Positions 43,234 to 51,473 of a stretch of 64,000 nucleotides of DNA are shown one piece after another. The notes beneath the pieces were generated by a model. The model saw nothing but the letters and a program-made list of their open reading frames with translations. It searched no databases and had not been told where the DNA came from. Positions within the stretch are counted from its first letter, which is position 1. Each line of letters starts with the position of its first letter. This DNA is from Saccharomycodes ludwigii (taxonomy: Eukaryota > Ascomycota > Saccharomycetes > Saccharomycodales > Saccharomycodaceae). A program made the position numbers and the translations under genes. The DNA lies in NCBI RefSeq assembly GCF_020623625.1, contig NC_060200.1:2748001-2812000 (forward strand), given 5' to 3'.

Positions 43234-46200
43234 TTATTTCAAATTCTTTAAAATCTTTTCCTTATCAGAAGCAGATAATAGTTTCAAAACTTCAGATAAT
43301 CCAACAATAGCATTATCATGATCACTTCTCAAGGACTTGGCTAGATTTTGAGCAATAGCTTCAACCTTGATAGATTTTAATTTTTCGTCTAACAACTGGT
43401 AATTCTCTTCTACCCAATTCGTAACTTGTCTATCATCTTGTTGATTAACAGAAGCTGGATACCATGATCTGATTCTGGCAAGCAACTCTAACCTGGAAGC
43501 TGATGGTAGTTCAGATTGTAATCTTCTGCACAAATATTCTTCGTTCAACTTTCTTCTCAACCTCCAGAAAAAGTAACGACGAGCATTAGTCCATTTCAAG
43601 GCTTCTCTAATAACATGTTTAGCCAGCATACGGTCAGATCTATCATGCAAATCAGCAAATTGAACAGTAATTTGATGATAAATTGGTAACAACCATTTTT
43701 CACGTTGAGCCAAAGCTGTGGAAATAGTTTTATGTTCCTCAGCATTCAAGGAGCTGTCGGCCAACTTATCCTTCAATTCTTTATATTTGTCGTCCAATCT
43801 GTACATAGTATTCAACAACTTTTCTCTACGGTATTTGATACCCACCATACCCTCGGGTTCCAAAACACCAGCTCTGGAATCAACATCTGCATACATTTCC
43901 ATGTGGTCAGGATTAATGGTTGGATCTACAACAACCCAAGAACCACCTCTCAATTCACCGGTTGGTGGAATATAGACAAAGACAGGTTGTTTGTAGGCAA
44001 CTAATGCATCAACAATAAAAGAACCATATTTCAAAACCTCATTGTACATATCACGTTGGCCACCAGAGAAACCTCTCCAATTAGCCAAGATCATCAAAGG
44101 CAATTGTTCACCATGGTTGAAATCATTAATGGCTTGAGCAGTCTTAAATGCAGAATTTGGATACCAAACTTGTCCAGCCTCTTGAACCAACATCTCAGTA
44201 GAATCAGGATTAGCAGGGTCCGCTGGAATCAAGTTTTCAACAGTTCTAGTCTCAACACAAATAACACCCATTGGAATACCACCCAAACGAGCTCTTCCAA
44301 CAACAACACCCTTGGCCCAACCAGATAAGGTTTCCTTGAAGGAGCCCTTATCAAACAAACCATATTCAAAACCATCTTCATCTTGTTTACCTTCAATCAT
44401 CCATCTAACGTCGTAAGCCTTCTTAGGTTCTGGAGCAAAATCAACATCTCTATCCCAAGTATCTTCAGATTCTAAAATAGGAACCGGCATATCACGTTTG
44501 GCTGGAATGTAGGATAGCCATTCTATGATCTTAGAAACACCATCTAAATCATCCTTGGCAGTTAAGTGAGAAACACCGTTGTTGTACATAATTTGAGTAC
44601 CACCCAATTGCAAGTTAGAAGAGTAAACTTCTCTTCCCAACAACTTGTTAATAGCTGGTGCACCAGTTAAAATAATCGGTTGTCCTTCAACTTGAATAGC
44701 TCTTTCACCTAATCTAACTAAATAGGCACCAATACCAACGGATCTACAAGAAACTAAGGTAATGGTGAAAATGTCCTTGTATGCTCTAGAAGTGGCACCA
44801 GCAATCAACCCAGAGCCTCTTAAACATTCAACACCTAAACCATCCTCAGAACCAATAATAGTCTTAATAACAAATCTCTCTTCACCATTTTCAACAACAC
44901 GTTCAGTAAGAACACTGTTTTCTTTACCGTCTTTCTTCAACTGAGCTAGACCATCAGCCGTCATGTACAAATATTCGAATCCCTTGGCTGGATCAGAGGC
45001 ATCCTTCCAGGCGACTTGGTAATATGGAATCAATTCATCAGCAATACCGATTCTAGCACCAGAGTTTGCAGATAAGTAGATTCTTGGAATACCCAACTTT
45101 CTAGCATATTTGGTGGCCTTGTTGAAAAATTCGTCCTCCTTTGGACCAAAAGAACCAATCTTAAAAGTAATATCATTTGCAATAACAACAAATTGACGAC
45201 CACGAGAATATTCTGGAGTTCTGGCTGTAATCTTGAAAGCAACCATACCAATAGTATTGGCACCAGCCTCACGCTCCACTTCGGTCAACTCACCATTCTC
45301 ATCTTCAATCAATTCGTTTGAAATGAAAAACAAGTCAGTAACTTTTGTCATTGGAGAAGTCTTTTTCCATTCAGAAACAAGAGCTTGGCGGAATAACTCG
45401 GGGAAATCATAAACATAAGTTGTACCCATTAAATGAGCCTTATAACGTTTTGGTTGCAACCATTCTTTAACAGGATATGGTGTAGCAATAGGCCTTAAAT
45501 GCATGGATCCCGGTTTATCTAAAGACTTGAAAACCCAAACACCTTCAGAGTTCTTAATTTCAGTGTACAATTCCGTTTTAACAACATAACCAGAAACATT
45601 ATTGATCAAAGCTCTCAATGGAACTGGTGACCCGGTCTTTGGATCCTTGATAATAATACGTATTTCAGCAGCAGCAATACGTAAACGCAATAATCTTTTA
45701 CCAAATCTCTCCAAGAACCCACCAAAGGCAGCTTCAACATCTTCTGGAGTAATATCGAAAACAGAAGAAAAATTAATGAAAATATGGTTCAAGTCCGAAT
45801 TAGAGGTGTCGATAATTTCCAAGTTATCTAAAATATCAGACATCAACCTATTGGCTTCGGATGTTAAGTATTCTTGAATACTGATGTCATCACGAATACG
45901 ACCAGTTCTAATAATACCTCTGGTGAAAAATCTTTTATCAACAGGAGAATTCTTTGCAATGGCTTCGTAAACATGGATATTTCTATTACCAGTAAAAATT
46001 TGCTTAATATTAAAGTTGGACATTCTTCCTAATTCCAATTGGAAAGCTAATGCAGGTTCAACGTTACGGATGGTTTCATCTTCCTCATAATTAGGACCAC
46101 GGAAGGTATAGAACTTAGGATAACTACCATCATTGTAGGTGAAAATAAAAGTAATACGACGAATAGAGGCATTTACCAAACTCTTCTTGTTCATATCCAA

Positions 46201-49200
46201 AATTTCCCTTAATCTCTTCAAAACCTGTTTGTCGTTTTCAAAACCGTCAGTAGAAGAAATGAAAACATTAGCAACATTGCTCAACGTTGAGTGGCCAAAA
46301 GATCTATTTGGAGCTGGACCCGAAGCACTATTTTGATGTGGAATAATACACAAAGCATCGGAAAGAGAATCATCAATATCATCCAAGTGTTTGGCAGCTA
46401 CTAAAACACCAGTTCTTAAAGGTTGGGTTCCATCGTTGGAAATAAAAGACAAATCAGAAACCGACATGGCCCTGTTTAAGCCCAATTTATTCTTCATCTG
46501 AGGAACAGAAATTGAAGAGTTACTTGGCAACTGGAATTTCCATTCAACGACAGGAGAACCACTGACTTTATGATGTTTCACATCACCAATTGTGTACGCT
46601 CTATAAGCACGACGAATGTAAACATCAGCAGCAGCAGAAGCAATATCCACATCGTTATCATTAAGAAATTGAGACAGAACATCAAAAACAACATAATTGG
46701 AATCAATTAAATCCTTTAAAATATTCAAATCTGGTTCAGAACGTCTAGCGTTGGATCCATATGAAGCCTTGACAACAGAGCTTTTCAAAATATGTTCAAC
46801 TTGAGCAGTTCTTTCAGAAATAGAAGGCAAAGCACCTTGAATTAAAATTTCTCTTGCTTGTAGAGCAACCTTAGCTGTAGCCTTGGACTCCAATTGAACA
46901 ATATTCTTCAAAGGCTCGGAAATAGCAGCAGCGACATCCGAAGAAATTTTGCATAATGGTTGGTAATGTTTCAAAATGGCCAAAATCAAATTGTTTTTCG
47001 CAAAGACTCTGGAGTGTGATAAAACGGTCAAAACAACCTTATTTAAATCGTCGGTATGCTCATCACGTAATTTTAAAATAACATCTTCCTCACGAACATT
47101 GGACCCACTGAATAAGCTTTCAACGTCATAATATTCCTCCAAAAACTTTGCAAAAACAGAGTGCTCATGAGCTTTCAAGCCGTTCGAATAACGTCTTGTA
47201 ATATCCAATAGTGGTTCAACAGTGGCAGAAAACAAAATAGACTCTGAATGTTCTTCGATCGAATGTTCCAACAATTTGTTAAGTTGCTTGGCAGGAAAAT
47301 CAGCAGAACGTTTTTCAGATCTGCTCACCAAGTCAGTCAATTTATCGTCCAGCTCTTTGGGTAATCTGGAATGCAAAGCAGAAACTTGCAGGCGCCATTC
47401 ACTATAAGGCAATTTTGGGTCTCTTAAGACTTGTATCAAATTTTGTAACGAGGTATTCATGATAACCTGATTATCATAACCCTTCAAAATATTTTCTAAA
47501 GTGGTAACTAAACTCTTGAACTTGTAGGCTGGTTTGGTACCTTCAATGATCGGAGCACCCAACTCTGGTAACATTCCTTCAAATGGCAAGGCATGTTTGA
47601 CCTTACTAGGATCATCTAAACTCAAAATACCTAAAATATCGCCTGCAGAAACGGTGGAACCTGGCTGTTTCAACAATTGAACAATACCGCTTTCTTGGGA
47701 AACTAATGGCATTTGCATCTTCATGACTTCAACTTCAGCATATGGTTGGCCAGCATTGACATGATCACCGCTTTCAACCAAATATTTAACCAACTTACCT
47801 GGCGATGGAGTACGCAATTGAGTTGGGTCATTTTCAGCTTCCAATAAAGTAGTCATGGAGTCAATAGACAATCTAGTAGCAGAAACTTCCTCCTTCCAAT
47901 AAATGGTGTGTGATTTACCGCCAACAGAAATCAATAAACCACCATCAGACAACTTACGAACTCCAACCTCACATTTGGAACCGTTAATAAACAAAGTATA
48001 ACGTTCATCTGCAGATTGGGCAACTGTAAACTTAAATCTCTTGTCTTCGTGAATAAATTCAATTGGGTACATAGTTTGCAACAATGATTTATTTGGAACT
48101 TGACCTCTTTTCAAGCTGTTGATATATTCTTCATGTGCCTTGGAAGATACAATATAGGCCTTTGTTGCAGCCCCACAAATGACAGCCAAAGTAGAGTCTG
48201 GTTTTTCGGCACTCATTTTCTGGCTGATTAAATCATCCAACCAACCAGTAGTAATAGTGTTTTCTTCAAAATCCTCAGTTTCTAGCAACTTGATTAAATA
48301 TTCAACAGTGGTTCGGAAATCACCTCTTATAGATAACTCTTTTAAAGCCACAACCATATGTCTTCTAGAGGCTTCTCTATTTTCACCAAAGGCAAAAATA
48401 TGACCGAACTGCGAATCCGCAAAAGAATGGATACCACCATTATTACCTACAGAAAAATAACCCCAAACATTTGATGAAGAACGGAAATTCAATTCGTAGA
48501 TTGAACCACCAGATGGCTTGAAACCTTCATTTGGATCTTCAGAGGTAATACGACAAGCGGTACAATGACCCTTTGGAATTGGTTTTCTTTGAGTTTTTAA
48601 GGATTCCTCCGAGGAGAAATCAAAATCAATCTTGGTTGCAGTACGTGGATCAACACCATAGAACAACCTAATATCCCTGATTCTATGCATTGGAATACCC
48701 ATAGCAATTTGCAATTGAGCCGCTGGTAAATTGACACCGCTAACCATTTCAGTAGTTGGATGTTCCACTTGCAATCTTGGGTTCAATTCCAAAAAGTAAA
48801 ATTTATCGTCTTCATGAGAATATAAATATTCAACGGTACCAGCAGAAACGTAGCCGACTAGCTTACCTAACCTAACAGCAGCCTTTTCCATCTTGGAAAA
48901 AGTTTCTGGTTTGGCAATAGTAACAGGTGCTTCTTCAATAATCTTTTGGTGACGTCTTTGGACCGAACAGTCACGGCCAAATAGAGAAATGTTGGTGCCG
49001 TACTGATCCGCCAATAATTGGACTTCTAAATGACGGGCTTGCCCAGCCAGTTTCATAATAAAAATAGGAGAGCCAGGAATTTCATTGGCAGCTTGATCAT
49101 ATAACGTCAAGAAATCCTCTTCACGTTCAACCTTTCTGATACCTTTACCACCACCACCTTCAGATGCCTTAACCATAATTGGGAACCCAATTTTTTTGGC

Positions 49201-49926
49201 AACAAGTAAACCTTCTTCGGGAGAAGAACAACAACCTTTTTGGTAAACAGAATCTTCAACAGAAACCAACCCATTATTTTTGTCAACAACAACTTGATCA
49301 ACACCAGTACCAGACCATGGAATGCATGGAACCTTGGCATGTTGGGCAACAATTGTGGAAGAAATTTTATCACCTAGAGATCTCATAGCATTTCCTGGAG
49401 GACCAATAAAGATGACTTTTCTTTTAGAAGCAGCCAATTTTTCTGGTAATAATGGGTTCTCAGACGCATGACCCCAACCAGCCCAAACTGCATCAACATT
49501 GGTTCTCTCCGCTATTTCCACAATTAAATCTACATTGGCATAATTGTTGTTATTAGTTCCACCTGGGACCTCGACATATTGGTCAGCCATTCGAATATAT
49601 TCGGCATTAGCTTCCAAATCTTCCGGAGTGGCCATGGCAACAAATTCAATAGTTCTTTCGTTACCAAATGTATCATAAGCCCACTTCCTAACAGATCTGA
49701 TTTCTTTGACAGCACCAATACCATTGTTTGCAATTAAAACTTTGGAAATAACGGTGTGACCACCATGAGACTTGACAAACTCTTTTAATATACCTTCCTC
49801 TGCCTTATCCAGGGTATTCAGACCAATGAAGTTGGATGGTAATTTAGCATGTTCTTTAGAGTAATCTGTGACTTCAAACTGCTTGTGTTGAGACTCAGCA
49901 ACTTCGGATAAATTTTCTTCACTCAT
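43234..49926 (-). CDS. ACC1: Acetyl-CoA carboxylase, cytosolic AUG form
   Basis: Predicted 2230 residues from the first in-frame ATG (49924-49926, MSEENLSEVAES, matching the S. cerevisiae Acc1 start MSEESL). The enzyme carboxylates acetyl-CoA to malonyl-CoA for fatty-acid synthesis. Order of domains: biotin carboxylase (about 50-560, with KASEGGGGKGIRKVE), biotin carboxyl carrier (EVMKMQMPL, near residue 740), a long central regulatory region with NRAMSVSDLSF (the site class phosphorylated by Snf1), then carboxyltransferase (about 1480-2100, with NSGARIGIADE and FRGFSGGQRDM). Similarity to S. cerevisiae Acc1 runs end to end. It is a single gene at the place corresponding to both ACC1 (YNR016C) and HFA1 (YMR207C). 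An upstream coding extension is listed separately. Confidence 0.98.
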   Translation of the reverse strand: MSEENLSEVAESQHKQFEVTDYSKEHAKLPSNFIGLNTLDKAEEGILKEFVKSHGGHTVISKVLIANNGIGAVKEIRSVRKWAYDTFGNERTIEFVAMATPEDLEANAEYIRMADQYVEVPGGTNNNNYANVDLIVEIAERTNVDAVWAGWGHASENPLLPEKLAASKRKVIFIGPPGNAMRSLGDKISSTIVAQHAKVPCIPWSGTGVDQVVVDKNNGLVSVEDSVYQKGCCSSPEEGLLVAKKIGFPIMVKASEGGGGKGIRKVEREEDFLTLYDQAANEIPGSPIFIMKLAGQARHLEVQLLADQYGTNISLFGRDCSVQRRHQKIIEEAPVTIAKPETFSKMEKAAVRLGKLVGYVSAGTVEYLYSHEDDKFYFLELNPRLQVEHPTTEMVSGVNLPAAQLQIAMGIPMHRIRDIRLFYGVDPRTATKIDFDFSSEESLKTQRKPIPKGHCTACRITSEDPNEGFKPSGGSIYELNFRSSSNVWGYFSVGNNGGIHSFADSQFGHIFAFGENREASRRHMVVALKELSIRGDFRTTVEYLIKLLETEDFEENTITTGWLDDLISQKMSAEKPDSTLAVICGAATKAYIVSSKAHEEYINSLKRGQVPNKSLLQTMYPIEFIHEDKRFKFTVAQSADERYTLFINGSKCEVGVRKLSDGGLLISVGGKSHTIYWKEEVSATRLSIDSMTTLLEAENDPTQLRTPSPGKLVKYLVESGDHVNAGQPYAEVEVMKMQMPLVSQESGIVQLLKQPGSTVSAGDILGILSLDDPSKVKHALPFEGMLPELGAPIIEGTKPAYKFKSLVTTLENILKGYDNQVIMNTSLQNLIQVLRDPKLPYSEWRLQVSALHSRLPKELDDKLTDLVSRSEKRSADFPAKQLNKLLEHSIEEHSESILFSATVEPLLDITRRYSNGLKAHEHSVFAKFLEEYYDVESLFSGSNVREEDVILKLRDEHTDDLNKVVLTVLSHSRVFAKNNLILAILKHYQPLCKISSDVAAAISEPLKNIVQLESKATAKVALQAREILIQGALPSISERTAQVEHILKSSVVKASYGSNARRSEPDLNILKDLIDSNYVVFDVLSQFLNDNDVDIASAAADVYIRRAYRAYTIGDVKHHKVSGSPVVEWKFQLPSNSSISVPQMKNKLGLNRAMSVSDLSFISNDGTQPLRTGVLVAAKHLDDIDDSLSDALCIIPHQNSASGPAPNRSFGHSTLSNVANVFISSTDGFENDKQVLKRLREILDMNKKSLVNASIRRITFIFTYNDGSYPKFYTFRGPNYEEDETIRNVEPALAFQLELGRMSNFNIKQIFTGNRNIHVYEAIAKNSPVDKRFFTRGIIRTGRIRDDISIQEYLTSEANRLMSDILDNLEIIDTSNSDLNHIFINFSSVFDITPEDVEAAFGGFLERFGKRLLRLRIAAAEIRIIIKDPKTGSPVPLRALINNVSGYVVKTELYTEIKNSEGVWVFKSLDKPGSMHLRPIATPYPVKEWLQPKRYKAHLMGTTYVYDFPELFRQALVSEWKKTSPMTKVTDLFFISNELIEDENGELTEVEREAGANTIGMVAFKITARTPEYSRGRQFVVIANDITFKIGSFGPKEDEFFNKATKYARKLGIPRIYLSANSGARIGIADELIPYYQVAWKDASDPAKGFEYLYMTADGLAQLKKDGKENSVLTERVVENGEERFVIKTIIGSEDGLGVECLRGSGLIAGATSRAYKDIFTITLVSCRSVGIGAYLVRLGERAIQVEGQPIILTGAPAINKLLGREVYSSNLQLGGTQIMYNNGVSHLTAKDDLDGVSKIIEWLSYIPAKRDMPVPILESEDTWDRDVDFAPEPKKAYDVRWMIEGKQDEDGFEYGLFDKGSFKETLSGWAKGVVVGRARLGGIPMGVICVETRTVENLIPADPANPDSTEMLVQEAGQVWYPNSAFKTAQAINDFNHGEQLPLMILANWRGFSGGQRDMYNEVLKYGSFIVDALVAYKQPVFVYIPPTGELRGGSWVVVDPTINPDHMEMYADVDSRAGVLEPEGMVGIKYRREKLLNTMYRLDDKYKELKDKLADSSLNAEEHKTISTALAQREKWLLPIYHQITVQFADLHDRSDRMLAKHVIREALKWTNARRYFFWRLRRKLNEEYLCRRLQSELPSASRLELLARIRSWYPASVNQQDDRQVTNWVEENYQLLDEKLKSIKVEAIAQNLAKSLRSDHDNAIVGLSEVLKLLSASDKEKILKNLK

Positions 49927-50145
49927 TATGCTTGATAATGATGTACTTTCTTTGTTATTATTGTATGATAAAGTATTGATACACCTAAGAAAAATATTTC
50001 TTAATAAAATGTTACTATGTATATTGCAATTATGCGAACGATAAAATATATCTCTAAATAATGGTAAATATTGTCTTGACCTTAATTGGCTATTAATTTT
50101 GTATAAATCTTTAGCAAAAAATAAAAGTCTATTTAAAATCAGCAC
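49927..50145 (-). CDS. ACC1: Putative non-AUG mitochondrial presequence of ACC1
   Basis: The ACC1 frame stays open for 73 codons above the canonical AUG, back to an in-frame TAA at 50152-50154. There is no ATG in this stretch. The first codons after the stop read ACC, AAA, GTG (50143-50145), CTG (50140-50142), ATT (50137-50139). The encoded leader has about ten Lys/Arg and only three Asp/Glu, is rich in Leu, Ile, Ser and Asn, and starts with the amphipathic-looking LILNRLLFFAKDLYK. This is a typical mitochondrial targeting signal. S. cerevisiae Hfa1 is known to start at an upstream AUU, and cryptic leaders are reported in unduplicated yeasts. The exact initiating codon here is not known. Confidence 0.75.
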
Positions 50146-50154
50146 TTTGGTTTA

Positions 50155-51473
50155 AAATTTATGAGGATAGTCCTGTAACTTTTTTTCTTGTGATTTTGTT
50201 AGTAAACGTTAATTAGATTTATAATTAGTGGATAATAATGATCTTTTTTTTTTTTTTTTTTTGTAAGCAATTGGGACAAAATAGTAATTGACTGTGTTTA
50301 TATTTTAGACTGTGTTTAATAACAATGTTATTTTTCTCTTTCTCTGCTGAAATTTTTTTTTTTTTACTACACTCATTAAATGAGAAAATATTGTTTTGAT
50401 ATAAACTTTTCTTTGGATTTTAATGTAATATGGTATAATAACAGACTTTTTTTTTTTTTGTCCTGCTTCTTAATTATCAATTTGCGTCCATCTTATTTTG
50501 TAACTTGCAGTTTACATAATGTTTTTTTTTTGTTGAAAAAAAATTTTTTTTTTTTTATCAAAAGGGTAGATTTCGTTTAGATTTAATTAAAAAAAAAAAA
50601 AACTTTCTGCTAATCGAGTTACAAAAATATTTTGCTAATTTTAACTTAGCCAACGTTAGCTCTTGAAATTTTCCATAAAAATTTAAGAGAATTGATAAAA
50701 AAAGATATATTGTACAGTCACTATACCCATTTCCTGCGTAAAATGGATGGGTTAAAAATTGCAATTTTCCATTGAACCCAATTGTACTCTAACTATACAT
50801 GATCATTATTGTAAATCTTTTTTTTTTTTTTTTGTAAAAAGAACCCTCATTAGTATAAAAATAGTAGACATACCTTTCCGAGTGAAGAATTGTTGCTGGT
50901 GTTTATGTTATAACTTTTTTTAATTTGTTCTTTATTTTCTTGAATATGTCCAAATTAAATAGAATAAAAATAAAAATAAAAATGAAAAATAAAAGTAAAT
51001 AACAAAAAAGAATGTATTATAATGTGTTGTTTGCCTGCTTTATTTTTATTTTTATTTATTTATTTACTTATATGATATGAATAGGTTAAAAGTTTTAATA
51101 AGAATTCAAAATGAAAAAAATAGTTAGTAAAATGGTTAAGAATTGTTAAACAGAACAACCGAAAAACTTTTTTCTTTTATTTGAAAAGGAGAGAGAAAGA
51201 AAGAAAGAAGGTTTAAAAGTGATGAAAAGATTTGACAAGAGTGGAGAGAAGATAAGCTTTATTCTTTTTTTTTTTCTTTTATATGAAAGACATGTAAAAT
51301 ATGTTTTTTTTTTTTTTTTTTTTTTTTTGTGCTTTAATAGTGCGATGTGTAAAAATCTTAGGGTTTTTAACTTTCGGCGGTTAATTCTAATTTTTTTTTT
51401 TTTTTTTTTTTTTTTGTTTGCTCGTATTTTGCATTTTTTATTTCAGTTTTTAATGTTATTTTTTTCAACAAAA

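Follow-up and report, generated by a model that had tools for sequence, protein, structure and literature searches.

The ACC1 Gene and the Genome Around It

Does the acetyl-CoA carboxylase (ACC) gene ACC1 of the yeast Saccharomycodes ludwigii give rise to one protein or to two? The gene is located on the minus strand of the stretch of 64,000 nucleotides analyzed here (positions 2,748,001 to 2,812,000 of contig NC_060200.1, in the following called the window), and a preliminary description of this DNA had proposed that a cytosolic enzyme is made from the canonical AUG by leaky scanning and a mitochondrial enzyme from a GUG, CUG or AUU codon upstream of it. The lineage of S. ludwigii split off before the whole-genome duplication. 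From the canonical ATG, ACC1 encodes a protein with the Pfam domains biotin carboxylase, BT, biotinyl, ACC_central and carboxyl transferase. The matching database entry (P0001) comprises 2230 aa and thus begins at the AUG, without any upstream sequence. A search of the genome (12.50 Mb in eight contigs; the window itself has 30.7% GC) yielded one match to ACC_central and one ACC candidate in all, which is in agreement with the single, unduplicated ACC gene assumed in the preliminary description. According to the corresponding publication, the reference S. ludwigii assembly comprises 12.5 Mb in seven chromosomal scaffolds with one gap and has 30.9% GC (PMC8567612). The coordinates of all features discussed are given in Table 1.

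In Saccharomyces cerevisiae, the mitochondrial ACC is encoded by HFA1 and is translated from an AUU at position -372, upstream of the annotated AUG, whereas the single ACC gene of Kluyveromyces lactis carries a cryptic in-frame upstream leader of 83 aa that is bounded by a stop codon (Suomi et al., 2014; PMC4263661). As reported there, the K. lactis ACC carrying its leader rescued a delta-hfa1 strain in 12 of 18 isolates, compared to 0 of 18 when the leader was missing, and a single ACC gene with two starts was proposed to be the ancestral state (PMC4263661).

Table 1. Positions of the features discussed in the text; unless another location is named, numbers refer to the window.
Feature	Position	Strand	Basis
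ACC1 CDS (multifunctional acetyl-CoA carboxylase), 2230 aa counted from the canonical ATG	43234..49926	-	Pfam domains
ACC1 leader, 75 codons free of stop codons and ATG	49927..50151	-	proposed mitochondrial targeting sequence
Part of the 5′ leader predicted to lie in the second exon, ATG-free in all frames	49927..50172	-	sequence
CTG and ATT, the two codons after GTG, as alternative near-cognate starts	50137..50142	-	putative start use
GTG, favored near-cognate start of the ACC1 leader	50143..50145	-	putative start use
In-frame TAA closing the ACC1 leader at the upstream side	50152..50154	-	sequence
Candidate 5′ UTR intron, 701 nt, GTATGT...TACTAAC...ACAG, 10 ATGs	50173..50873	-	splice-site consensus
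TACTAAC branch-point box of the candidate intron	50198..50204	-	sequence
Two other candidate introns, located either 5′ of or within the coding sequence	joined L003-L022 stretch, offsets 149740-151150 and 81312-81846	-	motif pattern
FAS2-like frames	L026 G000:C1:2644472-2645884; L027 G000:C3:1402653-1404047		ketoacyl synthase matches

An Open, ATG-Free Frame Upstream of ACC1

Directly upstream of the canonical ATG and in frame with it, 75 codons are open and devoid of ATG. Downstream of the TAA that closes this leader, the codons ACC AAA are followed by GTG CTG ATT, that is, by three near-cognate codons in succession, and the leader therefore counts 73 codons from the GTG at 50145 and 75 from the TAA. 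The observations on which the preliminary description had been built, namely an open leader of 73 codons without ATG (50145 to 49927), the in-frame TAA and the presence of GTG, CTG and ATT among the first leader codons, were all confirmed by the sequence, with the addition that ACC AAA precede the GTG. On the minus strand, all three frames are free of ATG between 50375 and 49927. The triplet immediately 5′ of the GTG is AAA, which places an A at position -3, and the canonical ATG (49926-49924) has an A at -3 as well.

The length of the leader was compared with the upstream extensions of 96 non-overlapping open reading frames of at least 200 aa, ACC1 included, which were taken from the window and 200 kb of the same chromosome (264 kb in total); one of these was dropped due to a stretch of N, leaving 95. 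Among them, the ACC1 leader is the longest extension free of stop codons and ATG, followed by extensions of 65, 60, and 58 codons that are largely homopolymer. With upstream DNA modeled as a second-order Markov chain, the probability that 75 codons stay open was 0.009, so that the earlier assertion that an open stretch of this kind is unlikely to arise by chance holds.

The second argument of the preliminary description, a basic peptide with hydrophobic-basic helices, fared differently. The counts as such are right (ten Lys and Arg, three Asp and Glu), but as evidence for targeting they carry no weight, since random open translations of such AT-rich DNA are on average even more basic (net charge +8 for the leader, null mean +10.4) and contain as many acidic residues (3 vs. 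3.0). Likewise, the helical moment of the leader was at the level of the AT-rich null (0.47 vs. 0.45; for residues 1-40, shuffling gave P 0.40). Charge and amphipathicity, both being equal to the composition null, were consequently discarded as support for targeting, and where DNA is so rich in AT, basic charge alone says little in favor of a targeting peptide. The only unusual trait of the leader's composition is an excess of Arg over Lys: with P-values that are nominal and each refer to one of seven features tried, Arg was found seven times compared to 2.9 in the null (P 0.02), Lys four times compared to 10.6 (P 0.03), and the difference of Arg minus Lys gave P 0.0015.

Near-cognate starts of mitochondrial isoforms are established for two tRNA synthetases of S. 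cerevisiae, ALA1 and GRS1, whose extensions, seen by ribosome profiling, start at ACG and UUG, respectively, with the main form starting at AUG (PMC6898956). Ribosome occupancy of the extension relative to the main frame is given there as 0.1 for ALA1 and 0.23 for GRS1, and roughly every second upstream start codon that is translated in S. cerevisiae is a UUG, GUG, or CUG (PMC6898956). In the genome studied here, GRS1 has an ATG-free leader of 59 codons without any Asp or Glu (L023:1276-1452), which by its sequence looks as would be expected for a near-cognate mitochondrial isoform, and ALA1 has an ATG-free leader of 22 codons in which an ACG is followed by a short basic stretch (L024:1399-1464).

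Codon usage of the ACC1 leader lies between that of coding and non-coding DNA, nearer to the latter (P 0.067 against the null), with a score below 99.7% of coding windows. For the synonymous part of codon usage P was 0.12, and on this part a higher score was obtained for frame 2 of the leader DNA. As the leaders of GRS1 and ALA1 also score below zero, no better than the ACC1 leader, this test has little power. RNA structure gave no signal, neither around the GUG (z 0.15) nor behind it (z -0.33).

A Candidate Intron in the 5′ UTR

An element that the preliminary description had missed is a candidate intron in the 5′ UTR (Table 1), which ends 21 nt before the first leader codon and contains the ten ATGs that are nearest upstream of the leader. 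Within 2.5 kb upstream of ACC1, GTATGT occurs a single time, at 50873, and TACTAAC twice, at 51129 and at 50204-50198, with the ACAG ending at 50173. The stretch 52455-49924 contains neither a second GTATGT nor any GTAAGT, GTACGT, GTATAT, or GTATGA. Upstream of the candidate intron, the minus strand is free of ATG between 51292 and 50872, the next upstream ATG being located at 51293. Downstream of it, positions 50172-49929 contain no ATG compared to 2.03 expected from dinucleotides, which is unremarkable taken alone.

When the 1366 nt upstream were shuffled 3000 times with their dinucleotides preserved, the combination of the three intron signals arose in six of the shuffles; among 102 genes, three have it upstream, ACC1 included. 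The other two genes with GTATGT...TACTAAC...YAG upstream of their ATG have candidate introns of 653 and 92 nt. In the actin gene of the same genome, the corresponding arrangement reads ATGGATTCTG/GTATGT ... TACTAAC ... ACAG, the intron being about 1.1 kb long. A gene of the Ribosomal_S11 family, which we take to be RPS14-like, has a GTATGT that follows its tenth base, with a TACTAAC some 500 nt further on. Judged by these two genes, the signals and the size of the candidate intron are in line with local practice.

Because the TAA closing the leader would lie in the second exon, splicing of 50873-50173 adds no in-frame AUG to the leader. Given a transcription start downstream of 51293 and removal of the intron, the mRNA would keep the entire leader and contain no upstream AUG. 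The new element proposed here is thus an intron whose removal clears upstream AUGs and thereby makes a near-cognate start reachable. No paper on a UTR intron in a yeast ACC1 came up in a literature search, and one on non-AUG mitochondrial targeting upstream of yeast ACC1 led to PMC4263661 alone. The word intron is absent from the main text of PMC4263661, and a second genome paper on S. ludwigii (PMC7903802) mentions in its main text none of ACC1, acetyl-CoA carboxylase, HFA1, intron, fatty acid, or lipoic.

Leaders in Related ACC Proteins

Protein searches, from which the best 120 of 1790 and the best 120 of 3036 matches were taken, provided 139 different ACC proteins. Their canonical start was placed by alignment, and at least 20 residues ahead of it were counted as a leader. 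Among the matches listed, such a leader is present in 51 of the 138 proteins other than ACC1 and missing in 87, and in a raw composition count 47 of the 51 leaders contain less than 4% Asp and Glu. These numbers have to be read with the origin of the entries in mind, as many leader-bearing ones are metagenome gene calls, which apparently write any start as M, and many leaderless ones are annotations beginning at an ATG. In a FastTree tree based on the first 1400 residues of 61 of 120 ACC proteins, ACC1 falls into a group of five with P0016, P0046, P0051, and P0049 from Hanseniaspora menglaensis (local support 100), and it is this tree alone from which the family label of P0016, P0046, and P0051 is taken. 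Again among the matches listed, and with group names assigned by the analysis itself, leaders occur in two of the four other members of this family-level clade (P0016 and P0046), in two of nine proteins of the protoploid Kluyveromyces-Lachancea-Eremothecium group, in four of eight Zygosaccharomyces-Torulaspora-like ones, in four of 17 post-duplication ones and in both members of a long-branched pair.

An alignment of the relatives' leaders had been suggested as a check by the preliminary description. The leader part of a 13-row alignment contains no conserved column, and pairwise similarity reached P < 0.05 in one of 41 tests (P0003), where about two are expected by chance, and lost significance upon correction. 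As this set of 41 leaders included some wrongly cut entries (e.g., P0014, P0034, P0060), a recut set of 51 was used. In this set, the motif RLLF, located five residues behind the GTG, recurs in four relatives' leaders (P0002, P0003, P0061, and P0069); the sharing of some 4-mer by as many leaders gave P 0.041 in a shuffled-leader test, and the sharing of 5-mers P 0.45. Hence, the sequence of the ACC1 leader appears to be barely conserved. A scan of viral contigs provided no DNA of relatives for the leader region.

A separate observation concerns the second ACC of Tetrapisispora phaffii (P0070, TPHA_0D03740), which is deposited with a basic leader of 85 residues starting with Met and is perhaps the HFA1 counterpart.

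Genes for Mitochondrial Fatty Acid and Lipoate Synthesis

The genome contains an acyl carrier protein and a lipoyl synthase, both above their family cut-offs, as well as two lipoate-type ligases besides BPL1. All four start with ATG and have N-termini that, judged by eye, resemble presequences. A CEM1-like ketoacyl synthase is encoded by a frame of 472 aa; its score of 424.5 bits is below the NCBI fabF cut-off of 493.75, and the protein has no evident presequence. These genes, which are the ones covered by the search, are named by family match. The presence of genes for mitochondrial fatty acid and lipoate synthesis leads to the expectation that there is a source of malonyl-CoA in the mitochondria.

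One Gene, Probably for Two Compartments

Taken together, the observations make it quite probable that two proteins arise from a single spliced mRNA of the only ACC gene found in S. ludwigii, a mitochondrial one from GUG (or CUG/AUU) and a cytosolic one from AUG. The open frame, the lack of ATG, the single ACC gene, several pathway genes and the splice-site consensus can be read directly from the sequence; from these we infer the transcription start, the splicing, the initiation at a near-cognate codon and the import. In such a mechanism, the 5′ UTR intron with its ten AUGs would be spliced out, leaving a leader free of AUG ahead of the canonical start, provided that transcription begins downstream of the ATG at 51293. 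Some of the scanning ribosomes would then initiate at the head of the leader, most likely at the GUG at 50145, else at the CUG or AUU, and the resulting N-terminally extended enzyme would enter the mitochondria and supply malonyl-CoA for fatty acid and lipoate synthesis there. Most ribosomes would leak past these codons to the AUG at 49926 and produce the cytosolic enzyme. The leader itself is likely to be a mitochondrial address tag without a standard start codon. The dual-start interpretation of the preliminary description is thereby retained as far as it relies on the open frame and the single ACC gene, to which the relatives' leaders, the pathway genes and the leaders of GRS1 and ALA1 can be added, but not with respect to charge and helices, which are at null level. 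Points against it are the weak conservation of the leader, its codon usage, the lack of a leader in 87 of the 138 other proteins listed (among them two of the four clade mates and seven of the nine protoploid ones), the CEM1-like protein without an evident presequence, and the short open stretch ahead of BPL1, whose product would have to act on a mitochondrial ACC. A further, rather doubtful suggestion is that splicing acts as a switch ahead of the dual start: neither form would be made efficiently from unspliced mRNA with its ten AUGs, and the output as well as the ratio of mitochondrial to cytosolic malonyl-CoA production would be set by splicing or by transcription starts within the intron.

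It might be argued that the leader is a plain 5′ UTR with a frame that is open by chance in low-GC DNA, and that the mitochondria obtain their malonyl-CoA from another source or by importing the ACC1 protein in a different way. The charge, acid content and helical moment of the leader match what this explanation predicts, as do its codon usage in a test of low power, its weak conservation and the lack of a leader in two of four clade mates among the matches listed, and an open stretch of 75 codons is rare yet possible (0.9%). We nevertheless consider this explanation unlikely, given that the longest of 95 extensions belongs to the one gene for which a leader had been predicted in advance from other yeasts, that the relatives' leaders are low in acidic residues and that the leader has an excess of Arg. 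If, on the other hand, an extended protein is made, its role could be regulatory or cytosolic, with translation of the leader tuning the use of the AUG. This would fit targeting features that do not exceed the composition null, but it is very improbable in view of the mitochondrial pathway genes next to a single ACC found and of K. lactis, where genetic rescue identifies the leader as a targeting signal (PMC4263661). As the candidate intron lies directly upstream of the leader, it is also conceivable that the mitochondrial form starts at an AUG supplied by splicing or a longer transcript instead of at a near-cognate codon. Such an AUG from an upstream exon is disfavored by the in-frame TAA within the predicted second exon, by a first exon that, when starting within 51292-50872, offers no ATG, and by the lack of a further GTATGT or one of the four scanned variants in the region given above, which together render this possibility very remote.

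A gene with two starts, as preferred here, would place S. ludwigii next to K. lactis, and the best reading is that the same ACC arrangement already known from the latter has in S. ludwigii a further case. Common to both yeasts are a single ACC, a cytosolic AUG and a stop-bounded in-frame leader (83 aa and 75 codons, respectively). In contrast to K. lactis, where the function of the leader was shown by rescue of delta-hfa1, the leader of S. ludwigii is known from its sequence; it is in addition preceded by a candidate 5′ UTR intron, for which there is no counterpart mentioned in the main text of PMC4263661. The near-cognate start upstream of an AUG that is proposed here resembles HFA1, but HFA1 is a separate paralog from the whole-genome duplication, whereas in S. 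ludwigii one ACC was found, with a leader of 225 nt. If true, the single-gene, two-compartment ACC would extend to the lineage of Saccharomycodes and Hanseniaspora, neither of which is named in the main text of PMC4263661, and this extension would favor an ancestral origin of the dual gene.

For biotin protein ligase, cryptic upstream leaders have been predicted in other yeasts (PMC4263661). Unlike these predictions, the BPL1-like gene of S. ludwigii lacks a cryptic upstream targeting leader, with only six open codons ahead of its ATG (L033:340-360), and a mitochondrial ACC could be biotinylated before import.

Finally, in each of two separate long frames (1900 and 1854 aa), the match to ketoacyl synthase is split into two pieces, resembling FAS2 (Table 1). 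Judging from these matches, S. ludwigii may have two FAS2-like genes.
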